From an uncultured Haliea sp. (GTDB lineage Bacteria > Pseudomonadota > Gammaproteobacteria > Pseudomonadales > Halieaceae): DNA of 38,591 bases. The position numbers were made by a program, and so were the translations under genes. The stretch covers positions 1-38,591 of the forward strand of contig CAMYIZ010000066.1 of NCBI GenBank assembly GCA_947258585.1, written 5' to 3'. Shown piece after piece: positions 22,054-29,689 of the stretch. Below the pieces are notes generated by a model. It was not told the origin of the DNA. It saw only the letters and a list, made by a program, of their open reading frames with translations, and did no database searches. Every line of letters begins with the position of its first letter. The first letter of the stretch is position 1.

Positions 22054-24179
22054 GCGACGTTCTCAAGGACCAGATTCGCGAAGCGTATGCCGCCATCATG
22101 GCGGGCAAGGGCCTGAGTCCGCGCTGGGGCCAGCGGCAGATGATCGCGGAGATTGCCAACACCCTGGCACGCATCGCTCCCGCGACGGGACGCGCCGACC
22201 CGGAGGCTCCCGCGGTCTGTGTGATTGAGGCTGGTACCGGCACCGGCAAGACCATCGCCTATGCCGTAACGGCGATTCCCATGGCCCAGGCACTGGGCAA
22301 GCGACTGGTGGTTGCCACGGCCACCGTCGCCCTGCAGGAACAGTTCGTCAACAAGGACCTGCCGGATATTCGTCATCACAGCGGGCTGGAGTTCAGCTAT
22401 ACCCTGGCCAAGGGCCGGCGCCGCTATGTCTGCCTGTCAAAGCTGGACCGGCAGCTTGCCGGAAGCGGTGGCGGGGATGTCCTGCCCCTGTACCCCGACG
22501 AATTCCAGGCGCCCGAGTCCGCCGAGGCCCTGCCCGTGTACAGCGCGATGGTCGAGGCTCTGGGTCGCGGCGAGTGGGACGGGGACAGGGACAACTGGCC
22601 CGGCCAGGTGCCGGAAGCGGTCTGGTTCGGCGCTACCACCGATCACAGTCAGTGCAGCGGTCGCCGCTGCCCGAATATCAGCCAGTGCAGCTTTTTCCGC
22701 GCCAGGGACCAGCTACAGTACGCCGATGTCATTGTCGCCAACCACGACCTGGTACTGGCCGATCTCGCCCTGGGCGGTGGCGCCATCCTCTCCGCCCCCG
22801 AAGACAGCATCTATATATTCGACGAAGGCCACCATTTGCCGGACAAGGCCCTGTCTCATTTCTCCAGTTTCTGCCGCCTGCACACCACTGGCCAATGGCT
22901 GCAGGAGAGCCGCAAATTGCTGGGCCAGGCCGCCTCGGCGCTGGCGCCGTTTACCGACCTGCAACGCTCGCTGCAGGCGCTGCCCGCGGTGATGGATGAG
23001 GCCCAGGCGGGACTGCAGGTTGCCGAACAGACGGTGGCGACCCTGTTCGCCGATCGCCCCCCGGGCAATGGCCGCGGTGATGATCAGCAGCTGCGCTTTC
23101 CCCACGGGCGCGTGCCCGAGGTCCTGCAGCCGCTGGCCGCCGGACTGGTCAACCAGTTCCAGCAACTCGCCGGCGGCCTGGCAAAGATAGAAAGCCGGCT
23201 CGAAGAGGCGCTGGAAGAAGATGATTCGGGACTGGACAAGGGCGAGATTGAAACCTGGCACCTCAGTCTGGGTGCCCTGCTGGGGCGGGCTGAGTCGACC
23301 CTGGAACTGTGGCAGGAGTACGCGGTGAGCGGTGCGGGCGAAGTTCCGCCCAAAGCGCGCTGGATAAGCTTGCTCGACACTGGTGGCCAGTTCGGTTTCG
23401 ACCTGCGCTGCAGCCCGATCCTCGCTGCGGATATCCTGGAGGAGTACCTCTGGTCCCGAGCGGCGGGCGTGGTGGTGACCTCGGCGACGATTACTGCCCT
23501 GCGCTCATTCGAGCGGTTCATCCTGCACTCCGGTGTGCCCCGGGAAGCCGCTTTCAAAGTGGTAACCAGCCCCTTTGACTATTCCCGTGCCACCCTGCAC
23601 GTGCCCGCCATGGACTGCGATCCCAGTGATGCCGAGGCCCACACTGCGGCCCTGGTGGCGCGGCTGCCCGGCCTGCTGGACCGCGGTGAGGCCAGCCTGG
23701 TGCTGTTCTCTTCCCGGCGCCAGATGCAGGAGGTGTATGAGGGGGTGCGCGAAAGCCTGGGGGAGCTGATCCTGCTGCAGGGAGACGGCAGCAAGCAGGA
23801 AATCCTGCGCCAGCACCGGGAGGCCGTCGATGCCGGGCGGGGCAGCGTTATCTTTGGCCTGGCGAGCTTCGCCGAGGGGGTGGACCTGCCCGGGGCCTAT
23901 TGCCGCCACGTAGTGATCGCCAAGATTCCCTTCGCGGTCCCCGACAGCCCGATAGAAGCGGCGCTGGCGGAGTGGGTCGAGGCCCAGGGGCGCAACGCCT
24001 TCATGGAGATCAGTGTGCCCGACGCAGCGTTGAAGCTGGTCCAGGCCAGCGGTCGTCTGCTGCGCACCGAGCAGGATTCGGGCCGGGTGACCCTGCTGGA
24101 CCGGCGTCTGCTCACCCGTCGCTACGGCCAGGCTATCCTCGATTCACTGCCACCGTTCCGGCGCGACCTGGCCCGCTAG
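22047..24179 (+). CDS. dinG: ATP-dependent DNA helicase DinG
   Basis: A 710-residue superfamily 2, XPD-like 5'-3' helicase with an iron-sulfur cluster; in E. coli it resolves R-loops and helps replication past transcription. The Walker A is EAGTGTGKT (61-69). The four candidate cluster ligands are C129 (RYVCLSK), C203, C208 and C214 (CSGRRCPNISQC). The Walker B/DEAH box is DEGH at 259-262, the DinG variant. Helicase motifs near the end include FGLASFAEGVDLPG and ALKLVQASGRLLR. The start is TTG 22047, overlapping the acyltransferase stop by seven bases; a plain ribosome binding site is weak, so translation is probably coupled. Length agrees with E. coli DinG (716). No LexA box is evident upstream. 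Confidence 0.95.
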   Translation: MLSDVLKDQIREAYAAIMAGKGLSPRWGQRQMIAEIANTLARIAPATGRADPEAPAVCVIEAGTGTGKTIAYAVTAIPMAQALGKRLVVATATVALQEQFVNKDLPDIRHHSGLEFSYTLAKGRRRYVCLSKLDRQLAGSGGGDVLPLYPDEFQAPESAEALPVYSAMVEALGRGEWDGDRDNWPGQVPEAVWFGATTDHSQCSGRRCPNISQCSFFRARDQLQYADVIVANHDLVLADLALGGGAILSAPEDSIYIFDEGHHLPDKALSHFSSFCRLHTTGQWLQESRKLLGQAASALAPFTDLQRSLQALPAVMDEAQAGLQVAEQTVATLFADRPPGNGRGDDQQLRFPHGRVPEVLQPLAAGLVNQFQQLAGGLAKIESRLEEALEEDDSGLDKGEIETWHLSLGALLGRAESTLELWQEYAVSGAGEVPPKARWISLLDTGGQFGFDLRCSPILAADILEEYLWSRAAGVVVTSATITALRSFERFILHSGVPREAAFKVVTSPFDYSRATLHVPAMDCDPSDAEAHTAALVARLPGLLDRGEASLVLFSSRRQMQEVYEGVRESLGELILLQGDGSKQEILRQHREAVDAGRGSVIFGLASFAEGVDLPGAYCRHVVIAKIPFAVPDSPIEAALAEWVEAQGRNAFMEISVPDAALKLVQASGRLLRTEQDSGRVTLLDRRLLTRRYGQAILDSLPPFRRDLAR

Positions 24180-24199
24180 TGGGGCGGGCCCCGTGCTCC

Positions 24200-25090
24200 T
24201 CAGTGCTCTGCCAGCGGGGTATTGACGATTTCCAGGGTGGCAGGATGCTGCAGGCGCCGCTCCGGGGAGATCACGTAAAAGGTGTCGACGAACTCCCGCG
24301 TGCGCCCGATCACGGCTACCCCGTACTGCGACATCACGTAGTCCTCGATAATCGTGGGGGCTGAGAAAATGCCGATTCCGGCCTGGCCGAATGACTTGAG
24401 CAGGGCGCTGTCGTCGAACTCGGCGATGATGTGCGGTGCGAGACCGTGCTTTTCAAACCAGGCCATGAGGAACGACCGCACGCTCGCCTTGCGTCCCGGA
24501 ACCAGGAAGGGTTGCCCGGACAGGCTCTCGGGAAACTGCCTGCTGCAGGTGGCCGCCAGCGCCGGCACGGCAAAAAAAGTAAAGCCGCTGTCCAGTATCC
24601 GGTAGTTCCAGGCCTTGATGTGGCTGCCTGACTTCAGCGGCTGATCGGTAATGATGCAATCCAGCCGGTTTACCGCCAGTTCCGCGAGCAGGGCTTCCTG
24701 GTCGCCTTCCTGGCAGACCAGCCGCATCTGACCCGGGCGCTGCAGGATAGGTTGCAGCAGGCGGTTGGCGAGAATCTTCGGGATGACGTCGGTAATGCCC
24801 ACGCGAAAGACTTCGCTGGCACCGCCGTCTGTCTGCAGCATCTGGCGGATCTCGCCGCCGAGCAGGAATATGGTTTCGGCGTGACCGTAGATCTGCCTGC
24901 CCTTTGCCGACAGCCGCAGCCGGCGACCCTCGCGCAGGAACAGTTTGGTCCCCAGCTGCTCCTCGAAGGCGGCGATCTGCCCGCTGATGGTTTGCGGGGT
25001 CAGGTTCAGGCGCGCGCTGGCGCGGGTAATGCTGCCGTCCGTGGCGACGTGAAAGAAGTAGTAAAGGTGGTTGTAATTGAGTGGGGTCAT
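24200..25090 (-). CDS. LysR family regulator, NhaR-like
   Basis: A 296-residue LysR regulator whose N-terminus (NYNHLYYFFHVATDGSITRA and LTPQTISGQIAAFEEQLG) is strikingly like NhaR, the sodium-responsive activator of the Na+/H+ antiporter gene nhaA in E. coli. The match continues through the body (CIITDQPLKSG, FLVPGRKASVRSFL, AEFDDSALLKSFGQ). The helix-turn-helix is at about 20-39. I chose ATG 25090; an ATG seven codons upstream (25111) is an alternative. It is transcribed away from purE-purK-sbtA-sbtB across a short AT-rich region, the usual layout for a LysR protein and its target operon. No nhaA is present in the window. Confidence 0.88.
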   Translation of the reverse strand: MTPLNYNHLYYFFHVATDGSITRASARLNLTPQTISGQIAAFEEQLGTKLFLREGRRLRLSAKGRQIYGHAETIFLLGGEIRQMLQTDGGASEVFRVGITDVIPKILANRLLQPILQRPGQMRLVCQEGDQEALLAELAVNRLDCIITDQPLKSGSHIKAWNYRILDSGFTFFAVPALAATCSRQFPESLSGQPFLVPGRKASVRSFLMAWFEKHGLAPHIIAEFDDSALLKSFGQAGIGIFSAPTIIEDYVMSQYGVAVIGRTREFVDTFYVISPERRLQHPATLEIVNTPLAEH

Positions 25091-25146
25091 ATAAGATATT
25101 TTCGATTTCAAATATTAAATAATTCGAATATATCATAGCTATTGCT

Positions 25147-25176
25147 TTCTGTAGCACGCACGCCGATCATTATGCT
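25147..25176 (+). promoter_or_regulatory. Candidate promoter of the purEK-sbtAB operon
   Basis: TATGCT at 25171-25176 (-10-like) with TTCTGT at 25147-25152 (weak -35) at 18-base spacing, in an AT-rich segment between the LysR gene and the leader ORF. The weak -35 would suit an activator-dependent promoter. The start would lie about 20 bases before the leader ribosome binding site at 25195. Confidence 0.4.
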
Positions 25177-25204
25177 CCCAATTTGTCCTGACGCGAGGAG
25201 AGCC

Positions 25205-25267
25205 ATGTCCCTGTTCCATTCCCGTATCCCCCCAGTGGTGAGAGCCGTCGCGGGGCGCGAATTGTGA
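25205..25267 (+). CDS. Leader ORF upstream of purE (20 codons)
   Basis: ATG 25205 follows a strong ribosome binding site (gaggag at 25195-25200) and opens a 20-residue frame, [20 protein letters not shown]. Its stop TGA (25265-25267) overlaps the purE GTG start (25264-25266) as GTGA. purE itself has no visible ribosome binding site, so ribosomes finishing the leader probably restart on purE. The peptide is basic and has no run of a single amino acid, so classical attenuation is unlikely. It may be a simple coupling device, or a regulatory leader. Its reality rests on position and the ribosome binding site only. Confidence 0.5.
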
Positions 25268-25764
25268 CGTCCCCGCTGGTGGGGATCACCATGGGCTCCC
25301 GCTCGGACTGGGAAACAATGCAGGGCGCGGCGGATGCCCTCACCGCGCTGCAGATACCGCACGAAGTGGAAGTGGTATCGGCCCATCGCACGCCCGACAA
25401 ATTGTTCGCCTATGCCGAATCCGCGGAACAACGCGGTCTCCGGGTGATTATCGCGGGGGCCGGAGGCGCGGCCCACCTGCCGGGAATGCTGGCAGCCAAG
25501 ACCCTGGTGCCCGTGCTCGGGGTGCCGGTGCAGTCGCGCGCAATGAACGGACTGGATTCACTGCTGTCGATCGTGCAGATGCCGGCCGGGATTCCGGTGG
25601 GGACCCTGGCCATCGGCAGCGCCGGCGCGGTCAACGCCGCGCTGTTGGCTGCGGCTATTCTCTCTGGCACCGATCCGGATTTGCGCGAGCGCCTGCGGCA
25701 GTATCGCACGCAACAGTCGGAACTCGTGCTGGAGCACCCGGACCCGAGGCAGCAGCCGGCATGA
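25264..25764 (+). CDS. purE: N5-carboxyaminoimidazole ribonucleotide mutase
   Basis: Cytosolic class I PurE, 166 residues, which rearranges N5-CAIR to CAIR in purine synthesis. Hallmarks are GSRSDW (11-16), SAHRTP (39-44) with catalytic His41, and [11 protein letters not shown] (65-75). The following [17 protein letters not shown] and PVGTLAIG are standard. The start is GTG 25264, overlapping the leader ORF's stop. Its own stop overlaps the purK ATG by four bases (ATGA). Class I enzymes need PurK to supply N5-CAIR, which fits the pairing here. Confidence 0.97.
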
Positions 25765-26867
25765 AGATAGGTATTCTGGGTGGCGGCCAACTGGCGCGGA
25801 TGCTGGCCCTGGCAGGGCACCCGCTGGGTCTGCAGTGCATTTCCCTGGAGCCTGCGGCTGAAGCCTGCGCGGCGCAGGTGGGCAGCGTCATCGCCGGTGA
25901 CTTTACCGACGAGGACCTGCTGGCGGATTTTGCGGCCGGGATCGATGTGGTGACAACCGAGGTGGAGCATGTGCCTCTGGTCGCCCTGGATTATCTGCAG
26001 CAGCATCGCCGGCTGGCACCCGGTCGCAGGTCAATTGCGGTGGCCCAGGACAGGCTGCTGGAAAAGACCCTGTTCCACGACCTGGAGCTGCCCACTGCGC
26101 ATTTCGTTCCGGTGGACTCGCTGGAGGACCTGGTCGCCGCCATGCAGGTGGTCGGCCTGCCTGCGATACTGAAAACACGCCGCATGGGTTACGACGGCAA
26201 GGGTCAGGTTGTCCTGCGGGAGGCCTCTGCCGCGGAGGCCGCCTGGAGTGCGGTCGCTGGTGCTCCCTGCCTGCTGGAAGCGATGGTGCCCTTTGACCGT
26301 GAAGTGTCGGTCATCGCGGTGCGCAGCCAGGAGGGCGAGTGCCGGTTCTGGCCGCTGACGGAAAACCTGCACCACAACGGCATTCTCAGTGTGTCCCGGG
26401 CGCTCCTGGAAGAGCCCCTGCAAGCGCTCGCCGAACAACATTGCCAGCGCCTGCTGGAGGCCCTCGACTATGTGGGGGTGCTGGCGCTCGAACTGTTCCA
26501 GGTCGGCGACAAACTGCTCGCCAATGAGTACGCACCCCGGGTGCACAACAGCGGGCACTGGACCATAGAGGGCGCGGTGACCTCCCAGTTCGAGAACCAC
26601 CTGCGCGCGGTTGCCGGCCTGCCCCTGGGCGCCACCGATGCGCGCTGCGCCGCCGCCATGGTCAATTTTGTCGGTCATGTCCCGGCGGCGAGCGCGGTGC
26701 TTGCGGTTGCCGATGCCCACCTGCATGTCTATGGCAAGCAGCCCAGGCCCGGTCGCAAAGTTGGTCACGCAACGCTGTGCGCGGCGCATCCCGGTTTGTT
26801 GGAGCCGGGCCTGAAAACGCTGGTACATCTCGCCCAGGGCGGGAGAGAGGGAGACGCGATTGCTTGA
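25761..26867 (+). CDS. purK: 5-(carboxyamino)imidazole ribonucleotide synthase
   Basis: ATP-grasp enzyme of 368 residues that makes N5-CAIR from AIR, ATP and bicarbonate. The N-terminal fold opens with [16 protein letters not shown] (4-19). The central ATP-grasp loop is [12 protein letters not shown], and the C-terminal metal-site region reads [20 protein letters not shown], where most homologues have NEIAPRPHNSGH. The bicarbonate requirement is important for the neighbourhood: the next gene, overlapping by eight bases, encodes a bicarbonate transporter. ATG 25761 overlaps the purE stop. Confidence 0.96.
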
Positions 26868-27807
26868 CCCGGTAGTCATGTTTTTCCTGCTCGGCATCGT
26901 CGCCGGCGTGCTGCGGTCCGAGCTGCGCTTGCCTGTTCAGGTCTACGAGCTGTTGAGTATCCTGCTGCTGCTGGCCATTGGCATGAAAGGCGGGATGGAG
27001 CTTGCCCGGCAGCCCTTCCTTACTTTGGTGCCACAGATGCTGGCGGTGATCGCCATGGGGTTTGTCCTGCCCCTGCTGGCCTATCCGGTACTGCTGTACC
27101 TGGGGCGGCTGCCGCGAACGGACGCGGCTTCCATCGCCGCCCACTACGGCTCCGTCAGCGTCGGCACCTTCGCGGTGGTCGTCGCTTACCTGGCGGCGCG
27201 TGAAATCAGCTACGAAGCCTACATGCCGGTATTTGTGGTGCTGCTGGAGATTCCGGCGATCCTGGTGGGAATCGTGCTCGCCAAGGGCCTGGGCAGCGGC
27301 TCGAGCCTGCGCCGCTCTGCGCATGAGGTCCTGCTGGGTAAAAGCATTGTCCTGTTGGTGGGCGGTCTGCTGATCGGCTGGGCCGCGGGGGAGGAGGGCC
27401 TGAAGGGCCTGGCGCCGCTGTTTTTCAGTCCATTCCAGGGGCTGCTGGCGCTGTTTCTGCTTGAAATGGGGCTGGTCACTGCCAGTCAGCTGGGAACCCT
27501 GCGGCGCTACGGCCTGTTCCTCCTTGGCTTCGGCGTGCTGGCACCGGTGGCGGCAGCCCTCTGTGGCCTGACGCTGGCCTGGCTGCTGGGGCTGTCCGTT
27601 GGCGGCGCCGTGGTGCTGGCCACCCTGGCAGCCAGCGCCTCCTACATAGCGGTTCCGGCGGCGATGCGGATATCCCTGCCCGAGGCCAATCCGGCGCTGT
27701 CACTGGCGGCGTCACTGGGCGTTACCTTCCCCTTCAATGTCGTTGTGGGTATCCCGCTGTACCATTGGCTGACGCGTCACGCCTATGCCATTTTCGGAGG
27801 AGGCTGA
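26860..27807 (+). CDS. sbtA: Sodium-dependent bicarbonate transporter, SbtA family
   Basis: An inner-membrane protein of 315 residues from the SbtA family (Pfam Sbt_1, formerly DUF897), whose cyanobacterial members import HCO3- with Na+. The opening [20 protein letters not shown] and LLLAIGMKGGMELA, and AAHYGSVSVGTFAVVV (about 89-104), are characteristic. About ten membrane helices are expected in two inverted halves. It is shorter than Synechocystis SbtA (374), lacking most of the cytoplasmic linker. The start is TTG 26860 inside the purK end, with a GGGAGAGAGGGAG tract upstream. sbtB follows after two bases. Transport of another small anion cannot be excluded, but the SbtB partner and purK context support bicarbonate. 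Confidence 0.87.
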   Translation: MLDPVVMFFLLGIVAGVLRSELRLPVQVYELLSILLLLAIGMKGGMELARQPFLTLVPQMLAVIAMGFVLPLLAYPVLLYLGRLPRTDAASIAAHYGSVSVGTFAVVVAYLAAREISYEAYMPVFVVLLEIPAILVGIVLAKGLGSGSSLRRSAHEVLLGKSIVLLVGGLLIGWAAGEEGLKGLAPLFFSPFQGLLALFLLEMGLVTASQLGTLRRYGLFLLGFGVLAPVAAALCGLTLAWLLGLSVGGAVVLATLAASASYIAVPAAMRISLPEANPALSLAASLGVTFPFNVVVGIPLYHWLTRHAYAIFGGG

Positions 27808-27809
27808 GC

Positions 27810-28112
27810 ATGCACCAGCATCATCGGCGGCTGTTGACCATCATCACCGAGTCCGCCATCGAGTCCCATCTGTTGCGCGATATCGAGCGCTGGGGCGCAC
27901 ACGGCTACACCATAACGGAGGCCCGCGGCAAGGGTGCGCGCGGGGTCCGGGAGGGGAACTGGGAAGCCAATCGCAATATCCGCATTGAAGTGGTGTGCGA
28001 GGACAGTGTCGCAGAGCTGATAGCCGCGGGGCTGCGCCAGCATTACTACGAGAACTACGCCATGATTCTCTACCTCAGCGATGTCGATGTGCTGAGGCCG
28101 GAGAAATTCTAG
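27810..28112 (+). CDS. sbtB: PII-like protein, SbtB-type partner of SbtA
   Basis: A 100-residue ferredoxin-fold protein of the PII superfamily. Visible pieces are the first strand and helix (RLLTIITESAIESHLLRDIE), a T-loop region at about 38-57 (ARGKGARGVREGNWEAN) and the NIRIEVVCED strand. SbtB proteins bind cAMP, AMP, ADP or ATP and bind SbtA to control HCO3- uptake. The usual SbtB C-terminal redox extension with its CGPxGC motif is missing; the protein ends DVLRPEKF and has a single cysteine. GGAGG lies about nine bases before ATG 27810, and the sbtA stop is two bases upstream. I assign SbtB-like function mainly from fold and context. Confidence 0.83.
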   Translation: MHQHHRRLLTIITESAIESHLLRDIERWGAHGYTITEARGKGARGVREGNWEANRNIRIEVVCEDSVAELIAAGLRQHYYENYAMILYLSDVDVLRPEKF

Positions 28113-28132
28113 CCGCCGGACCGGGGAGGCCG

Positions 28133-28450
28133 ATGCGCACCGAAGTCGCCGAAGTCCTGATCGATATCGAAGCCCAGCTGCGTCAGCTGTCGCTGTGGGA
28201 GCGGCTGCCGCCATCGTCCCGGGCACTGGCCTCGGTGGAACCGTTCTGTGTGGATACGCTGAGCCTGCCGCAGTGGCTGCAGTTCGTCTTTTTGCCAACC
28301 CTTTACCGGATGCTGGAGGAGGGAGCTCCCCTGCCGGAGCGCTGTGCGATCACGCCGATGGCGGAGGAGTTTTTTCGCGGCTCCCAGCTGGCGACGGCGG
28401 ACCTGCTGGCCTCGCTGCGGCGCATGGACCGCCTGTTGAGCGGCGAGTAG
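28133..28450 (+). CDS. YqcC family protein (DUF446)
   Basis: A 105-residue cytosolic helical protein of the YqcC family, recognised by VEPFCVDTLSLPQWLQFVFLP and MLEEGAPLPERCAITPMAEE. The E. coli member has no settled function and lies next to truC, a tRNA pseudouridine synthase gene; here no truC is next to it. GGGGAGG lies four bases before ATG 28133. The gene is 20 bases after sbtB on the same strand, so it probably belongs to the purEK-sbtAB transcript, though this may be chance proximity. It converges with fadA across a hairpin. Confidence 0.85.
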   Translation: MRTEVAEVLIDIEAQLRQLSLWERLPPSSRALASVEPFCVDTLSLPQWLQFVFLPTLYRMLEEGAPLPERCAITPMAEEFFRGSQLATADLLASLRRMDRLLSGE

Positions 28451-28452
28451 CT

Positions 28453-28475
28453 GCTGCGCCCCGAGCGGGCGCAGC
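28453..28475. terminator. Hairpin between yqcC and fadA
   Basis: A perfect 9-bp stem (gctgcgccc at 28453-28461, gggcgcagc at 28467-28475) with a 5-base loop between the two convergent stop codons. No T-run is present. Confidence 0.55.
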
Positions 28476-28486
28476 GCGCGGCAAAC

Positions 28487-29689
<1,203 letters not shown>

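Follow-up and report, generated by a model that had tools for sequence, protein, structure and literature searches.

SbtA-like transporter genes recur beside purE and purK and probably tie bicarbonate supply to purine synthesis

Bicarbonate import is usually treated as a tool of carbon fixers. The sodium-coupled importer SbtA and its PII-like partner SbtB (Slr1512 and Slr1513) belong to the cyanobacterial CO2-concentrating mechanism, and MpsAB of Staphylococcus aureus is a transporter of a different type. The bicarbonate requirement of PurK is textbook: with ATP, the enzyme converts HCO3– to N5-carboxyaminoimidazole ribonucleotide (N5-CAIR), which PurE then rearranges. In the stretch of DNA analysed in this work, a contig of 38,591 nucleotides from an uncultured Haliea sp. 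(Halieaceae, Pseudomonadales) referred to here as the window, genes for an SbtA-like and an SbtB-like protein directly follow purE and purK. Comparison with related loci indicates that the pairing of sbtA with purEK is real and recurrent, and probably meaningful. Because the genes of the probable importer and its partner lie within the purEK operon and the pairing recurs in several gene orders, bicarbonate supply probably matters for purines; this was the central idea of an earlier note on the same DNA, and it is held here as a strong hypothesis.

A review of inorganic-carbon tools in autotrophs notes that these are also widespread among heterotrophs and that purK mutants of cyanobacteria have been reported to require high CO2 (PMC10880623). 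Numerous heterotrophic bacteria have SbtA-like proteins (PMC10117731). In S. aureus, MpsAB or MpsABC serves inorganic-carbon uptake in a heterotroph (PMC6689103, PMC10269494), and the enzymes said to fix the HCO3– are pyruvate carboxylase and PurK (PMC10269494). An SBT permease is noted in SAR11 subclade IIIa and LD12, with anaplerotic enzymes and carbonic anhydrase named by the authors in that connection (PMC10030771). No description of a linkage between sbtA and purEK was found in the titles and abstracts of the literature searched, a body from which subscription papers and preprints are mostly absent.

The window is contig C66 of the draft genome G000, which comprises 4.19 Mb in 77 contigs. 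Its genes purE, purK, sbtA, sbtB and yqcC form a tight run (Table 1), in which purE and purK overlap by 4 bases, purK and sbtA overlap by 8, and sbtA and sbtB are separated by 2, exactly the coupling that the earlier note had described for the first four genes. A simple promoter and terminator scan of positions 24150–28800 returned a single promoter-like site ahead of purE (TTCAAA-18-TATCAT, 25107–25136); none of the gene junctions of the run carried a terminator-like site. Across the scan there were three promoter-like sites (0.7 expected) and four terminator-like sites (3.2 expected), two of the latter falling within purE on the + strand. The five genes most likely constitute one operon, which would be read as a single transcript. 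Only one purK in the window genome exceeds the model cut-off, so the purine operon looks like a housekeeping operon and not a spare copy.

Linkage was scored when purE or purK lay within 2.5 kb of sbtA on the same strand. The order purE-purK-sbtA-sbtB-yqcC is retained in all eight genomes of the genus. Within the family sbtA is patchy, being present in 29 of 140 genomes, and 22 of the 24 evaluable sbtA genomes are linked, eight of which are those of the window's genus. The five non-evaluable genomes are G036, G037, G038, G043 and G127; of these, G043 and G127 are short stretches (loci L034 and L033) that look linked and were left out of the count, and G037 carries purK-purE on a different contig from sbtA. 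An even sample of the order gave an sbtA match in 115 of 391 genomes, and removal of five weak matches and seven fragment or contig-end cases left 103 evaluable genomes. Linkage was present in 31 of the 103, spread over 20 of 58 genera and 17 of 30 families, so the pairing is not peculiar to this strain; restriction to this strain is what the earlier note had named as refuting its proposal. By chance alone, purEK would be found next to any given gene in roughly 1/1000 genomes (estimated from ~3,500 genes per genome). Two genomes with same-strand purEK at 2.8–3.0 kb, G207 and G404, were scored as unlinked.

Of at least 585 confirmed matches at named loci, the best 80 comprised 14 linked, 59 unlinked and seven that could not be judged; two of the 14, L184 and L220, are stretches already within other samples. 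The linked loci include Pseudohongiella, Microbulbifer, Neptuniibacter, Pleionea, Halioglobus, Ferrimonas and Aeromonas enteropelogenes, as well as a Chromatiales metagenome-assembled genome (MAG), two betaproteobacterial records and one MAG labelled Akkermansia. An even sample of the whole phylum gave an sbtA match in 71 of 397 genomes. The pairing is thus frequent within this order and scattered outside it, and in the phylum-wide sample the window is its only instance. The contig labelled as an Akkermansia muciniphila MAG (L224) reads purK-purE-sbtA-sbtB, which would place the linkage in Verrucomicrobiota too if the label holds. Five of the eight genus genomes (L009–L013) have a second sbtA-sbtB pair of the SSSDIS class with no purEK adjoining; the window genome shows no such second pair.

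Pooling of all samples gave 277 SbtA rows and 271 distinct sequences after identical sbtA pairs were merged (L027/L220, L062/L184, L077/L186, L085/L233, L138/L223 and L173/L174), a merger that leaves the counts for order, family and phylum unaltered. The state was known for 257 of these, 64 being linked and 193 unlinked, and could not be assigned for the other 14. The 64 linked loci fall into four gene orders: sbtA-purE-purK (31), purE-purK-sbtA-sbtB as in the window (13), purK-purE-sbtA-sbtB (10) and sbtA-sbtB-purE-purK (8), with two truncated readings. The gap is 60 bases or less in 52 of the 64, with a median of 6 bases. Every linked SbtA carries the motif S-[AGS]-S-Y-I-A, which is found in 248 of the 271 distinct sequences; linkage is absent from the 10 SbtA proteins with the SSSDIS motif and from the 11 rows of known state that carry neither motif. 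A FastTree phylogeny of SbtA requires a minimum of 21 changes of the linked state, or 19 when branches below 80% support are collapsed, against a mean of 59 and never fewer than 53 in 200 shuffles of the state. The linkage is therefore partly inherited and often rebuilt. A tandem pair of sbtA-like genes was seen on a single contig (L234:6914-8935).

The probable history of the window's own arrangement can be read from two other genera. G132, a genome of the same family that possesses no sbtA, has an island dinG-purE-purK-yqcC-fadA (locus L353) in which yqcC follows purK by 4 bases and both sbtA-sbtB and the LysR-type regulator gene found upstream of purE in the window are missing. In G054, sbtAB occupies the same slot, and no such LysR gene lies within 6 kb before purE. 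It is probable that sbtAB was inserted between purK and yqcC of a resident dinG-purE-purK-yqcC-fadA island and that the LysR gene was gained before purE in the window's genus; alternatively, sbtAB and LysR may have been lost in G132.

The setting of these operons does not point to carbon fixation. Neither RuBisCO nor microcompartment shell genes were found in any of 50 genomes, namely the 49 linked by the 2.5 kb rule, the window genome among them, and G207. A carboxysome- or RuBisCO-linked role was rejected on this count, and the role of SbtAB outside carbon fixation that the earlier note had proposed from the window becomes likely.

The company that sbtA keeps was surveyed by clustering the reading frames within 4 kb of it at 236 distinct loci (240 rows), one representative of each neighbour cluster, PurK excepted, being checked against Pfam or NCBIfam. 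A LysR-type regulator was present at 121 loci and SbtB at 95. PurK (36 loci) and PurE (31) lead the metabolic neighbours, followed by beta carbonic anhydrase (18, of which 15 on the same strand), with biotin carboxylase (10) and pyruvate carboxylase subunit B (8) at lower rank; the three commonest metabolic neighbours and these two are all users or makers of bicarbonate. In pseudomonads and their relatives, biotin carboxylase, pyruvate carboxylase subunit B and sbtA, mostly together with sbtB, lie in this order on a single strand, and such loci follow the same logic as purEK-sbtA with an anaplerotic enzyme. Ten further loci, belonging to other classes of the phylum, have a carbonic anhydrase gene close to sbtA (Table 1). 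This company of bicarbonate enzymes provides the best evidence here for bicarbonate as the substrate.

At L074, L076, L078, L094, L103, L182, L192 and L201, pyruvate carboxylase subunit genes lie upstream of sbtA and share its strand. At L096, L107 and L121 it is followed by an acyl-CoA dehydrogenase gene and, further on, a biotin-carboxylase-like frame on the same strand, and by our reading these loci resemble a pathway of leucine degradation through methylcrotonyl-CoA carboxylase, which likewise uses HCO3–. In sample family f13 (L089, L090, L091, L098, L109, L110 and L116), a Fur-family gene ends within or directly at the start of sbtA, and one f13 member of this gene matched PF01475.

The transporter itself is covered by the Sbt_1 profile (PF05982) from residue 4 to 305 of 315. 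Its single-chain model has a predicted local distance difference test (pLDDT) score of 91.5, and the five best chains in the PDB are all SbtA, with template modelling (TM) scores of 0.84–0.89 over the query length and 26–27% identity; named matches are 8ZOR, 7EGL and 7EGK (TM 0.85–0.89). Bile-acid symporters score lower (TM 0.54–0.64). By alignment, the backbone positions of the Na+ site map to Y96, G97, S98, A257 and S259, and the pocket positions V99, S100, S261 and I263 are kept (residues from PMC8352866 and PMC12093963). Of the four docked residues of the Slr1512 HCO3– site, S114 and S324 are retained as S100 and S261 and the other two differ (residues from PMC8352866). In an alignment of 21 sequences, S100, S261 and I263 are invariant and V99 is nearly so. 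Neither SbtA nor SbtB matched a model in the NCBIfam scan. Family and predicted fold are observed; bicarbonate would be the probable substrate and inward the probable direction of transport.

In SbtB proteins, an R-x-x-R motif holds the phosphates of ATP. The SbtB-like protein of the window has a predicted PII fold, with TTHA0516 (2CZ4) and SbtB as the nearest structures, and a T-loop (residues 41–53) modelled at low confidence. It possesses R44-x-x-R47, the counterpart of R43-x-x-R46 in Slr1513 (alignment A2; motif from PMC10117731); in some of the 23 rows of this alignment the first arginine is substituted. The C-terminal CGPxGC R-loop, which is found in some SbtB proteins only, is not present and the protein ends in LRPEKF. 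From fold and motif, SbtB probably binds adenine nucleotides and could brake SbtA. Loci of the purK-purE-sbtA type have a different PII-like partner that retains R-x-x-R (L020:2454-2759 and L036:2471-2773), and the L020 protein scores 48.3 bits against PF00543 with a DUF190 match below the cut-off.

A LysR-type regulator is encoded divergently from purE in all eight genus genomes (seven sister stretches and the window), with a likely ATG start at ~25090 in the window, and none was found in the sbtAB-less island L353; the earlier note had not referred to this gene. Between the two genes, a run of columns identical across the eight genomes contains TCGAA repeats, TCGAATATATCAT, and may be an operator-like and promoter-like block. 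The regulator is of the NhaR type by model. A search for NhaA (PF06965) found none in G000, G001, G005, G054 and G132, five of the seven genomes searched, the drafts G000, G001 and G005 being 96–100% complete. The sole G054 gene above the NhaR cut-off is divergent from a beta carbonic anhydrase gene at a distance of 162 bases (L383:2981-4768), and the encoded anhydrase has a hydrophobic, signal-like N-terminus. In G037 an NhaR-type LysR gene is divergent from purK-purE, with sbtA elsewhere on another contig, and in G119, G126 and G128 such a gene follows sbtB on the opposite strand. Since the other partners of the NhaR-type LysR are carbonic anhydrase and purK-purE, and no NhaA was found in the genome, this 'NhaR' looks like an inorganic-carbon regulator that would likely control the purEK-sbtAB operon. 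The LysR divergent from sbtA in the sbtA-purE-purK type matched CbbR best, below the cut-off, in the two cases checked (L137 and L243), and looks like a member of another group. Frames 64–72% identical to the G054 carbonic anhydrase occur in three genus genomes (L384, L385 and L389).

The start at 25205 given in the earlier note could not be kept, as it belongs to a 20-codon frame that runs across the purE start at GTG 25264. A leader peptide at this position was rejected because the frame is not conserved: in an alignment inspected by eye, its counterpart in relatives is lost, ends elsewhere or is in frame with purE. A purine-rich stretch precedes the frame; at the same place, the sister stretch L338 carries another frame of 20 codons whose residues are unrelated.

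Table 1. Features of the window around purEK-sbtAB, and sbtA loci with a nearby carbonic anhydrase gene
Feature	Position	Strand	Evidence or remark
purE (N5-CAIR mutase)	25264-25764	+	GTG start; TIGR01162 214.8 bits (cut-off 149.6)
purK (N5-CAIR synthase, HCO3– user)	25761-26867	+	TIGR01161 373.7 bits (cut-off 318.4); NF004679 434.4 bits (cut-off 326)
sbtA-like, putative Na+/HCO3– symporter, SASYIAVPAA class	26860-27807	+	TTG start; PF05982 380.7 bits
sbtB-like, PII-family protein	27810-28112	+	ATG start 27810; PF00543 83.3 bits
yqcC (DUF446), final gene of the tight run, genus-wide	28133-28450	+	PF04287 110.1 bits
LysR-type regulator, NhaR family by model (PRK11062)	24200-25111	-	NF008284 236.9 bits (cut-off 219)
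Conserved block between LysR and purE	25087-25160		strand unassigned; identical columns in 8 genus genomes
20-codon frame across the purE start	25205-25267	+	ATG 25205; read from the sequence; not conserved
Carbonic anhydrase close to sbtA, ten loci			L274, L277, L278, L280, L281, L282, L284, L285, L292, L314

Taken as a whole, the arrangement is likely to be a single operon that co-produces a bicarbonate importer and PurK, is switched by LysR and includes SbtB as an option. The Na+-coupled importer SbtA would be made together with PurK, the consumer of its substrate, so that HCO3– brought in by SbtA would be used with ATP by PurK to form N5-CAIR for PurE. The divergent LysR, judged from its other neighbours, probably turns the operon on when inorganic carbon is scarce, and SbtB would act as an optional brake on SbtA, not as the core of the arrangement. 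We infer both the benefit to purine synthesis and the signal to which LysR responds.

A number of observations weigh against this explanation. By the 2.5 kb rule, 72 of the 103 evaluable genomes of the order are unlinked, and in the phylum-wide sample neither the 60 loci outside the order nor 11 other members of the order were linked; the idea that the linkage is common across the phylum was rejected on the former count. Recurrent neighbours of unrelated kinds also occur among the 236 loci, namely a CzcA-type pump (13), an M17 peptidase (11), an ABC ATPase (11), a cyclase-like protein (9), Fur (8), acyl-CoA dehydrogenase (8), NhaA (7) and a RecN-like protein (7), some of which, such as the Fur and RecN-like frames in f13, turn up repeatedly in one sample family. 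A beta carbonic anhydrase (PF00484), itself able to make HCO3–, is encoded in 49 of the 50 genomes, and an importer that substitutes for carbonic anhydrase was rejected for that reason; in G012 and G163 the match amounts to no more than a short piece where a contig ends, and G213, the one genome without it, is a draft of ~660 contigs. Two of the four docked HCO3– residues of Slr1512 differ here, Y140 and S327 being replaced by V126 and A264, and both are required for full Slr1512 activity (PMC8352866). No Na+-dependent HCO3– uptake assay of this SbtA class was noticed in the literature searched, a 24%-identical cyanobacterial SbtA-like protein reportedly cannot replace SbtA (PMC11890772), and the authors of work on the Shewanella protein SO_3758 lean to efflux (PMC12093963). 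Finally, sbtB is missing (same strand, 2.5 kb) at 32 of the 64 distinct linked loci. The adenine-nucleotide feedback proposed in the earlier note is possible at this locus, where SbtB has its R-x-x-R motif, but was rejected as the general reason for the pairing, since half of the linked loci do without sbtB.

A broader account, whose chances we judge to be evenly balanced and which is compatible with the operon explanation, is that of a shared low-carbon regulon, in which LysR induces whatever suffers from HCO3– scarcity, SbtA feeds the whole cell and adjacency to purEK is merely convenient. It would fit the several different bicarbonate enzymes that adjoin sbtA, the position of the NhaR-type LysR next to carbonic anhydrase (G054) or next to a purK-purE pair that has no sbtA with it (G037), and the LysR neighbours at 121 of 236 loci with the two CbbR-like matches below the cut-off. 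However, purEK is the top metabolic neighbour, at 36 and 31 loci against at most 18 for any other, and the mostly near-gapless joining of purEK to sbtA is tighter than co-regulation requires.

It is unlikely that formate or some other small anion is what the carrier transports, perhaps out of the cell, with a link to purines through formate metabolism. This idea draws on SO_3758, in which A269T gives formate tolerance and which, by the residues named, shares the S-A-S-Y-I stretch with the window SbtA (PMC12093963), and on the leaning of its authors to efflux. The substrates of PurE and PurK are HCO3– or CO2 and include no formate, and the carbonic anhydrase and pyruvate carboxylase neighbours suit HCO3–. 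A query with the genome's own PurT (E 1e-30, frames of loci up to L332) matched its own locus only, and a formate link through PurT was rejected because no PurT lies beside sbtA at these loci.

Sodium or pH homeostasis by an NhaR-controlled Na+ carrier, with purEK adjacent by accident, appears more improbable still. The regulator does exceed the NhaR model cut-off (236.9 versus 219) and nhaA lies within 4 kb of sbtA at seven of the 236 loci, but SbtA would carry Na+ inward, the other partners of the LysR are carbonic anhydrase and purKE, and NhaA was not found in the five genomes named above, the window genome among them, for which reason a NhaA/Na+ regulon is not favoured. Chance neighbourhood descending from a single ancestor, for which the partly inherited linkage (21 changes versus 59) and its absence at all 60 loci outside the order in the phylum-wide sample may be cited, is hardly credible and already disfavoured by four separate gene orders, barring frequent rearrangement that accidentally kept the pair, and by two kinds of PII partner, occurrence in Gammaproteobacteria, Betaproteobacteria and the MAG labelled Akkermansia, and an island known both with and without sbtAB.

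If one operon indeed couples the importer to PurK, repeated purEK-sbtA operons without RuBisCO would imply selection acting as though bicarbonate supply limited purine synthesis. This would suggest a function for the SbtA class that holds most sequences (248 of 271) and a better name for the LysR annotated as NhaR. A wider picture, which we offer tentatively and rate somewhat short of an even chance, is that many heterotrophs, chiefly of this order, possess a RuBisCO-free 'carbon-concentrating mechanism', a LysR-governed inorganic-carbon regulon with a distinct SbtA class that feeds bicarbonate-limited biosynthesis and has been repeatedly assembled beside purEK, pyruvate carboxylase or carbonic anhydrase. 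PurK would then be a bottleneck at low CO2 and 'NhaR' a sensor of inorganic carbon.

Compared with described systems, the locus shows a variant of a familiar transporter system in new surroundings, the purEK operon. The SBT permease of SAR11 subclade IIIa and LD12 is likewise an Sbt-family permease of heterotrophs, for which purEK linkage is not described in the accessible passages (PMC10030771). Shewanella SO_3758 shares the S-A-S-Y-I class and the pocket positions (PMC12093963), whereas the single Shewanella locus found (L210) has neither purEK nor sbtB beside sbtA. MpsAB can reportedly complement a carbonic anhydrase mutant, and S. aureus is without a carbonic anhydrase, unlike the genomes considered here, in which moreover the transporter gene lies in the purEK operon. 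The cyanobacterial SbtA-SbtB system is alike in its fold (TM 0.84–0.89), its adjacent sbtA and sbtB, the pocket V99/S100/S261/I263 and the R-x-x-R motif of SbtB. In contrast, identity to it is 26–27%, SASYIAVPAA stands in place of SSSDISGPP, SbtB is without the R-loop, no RuBisCO or shell gene was found, and the genes are set within a purine operon.

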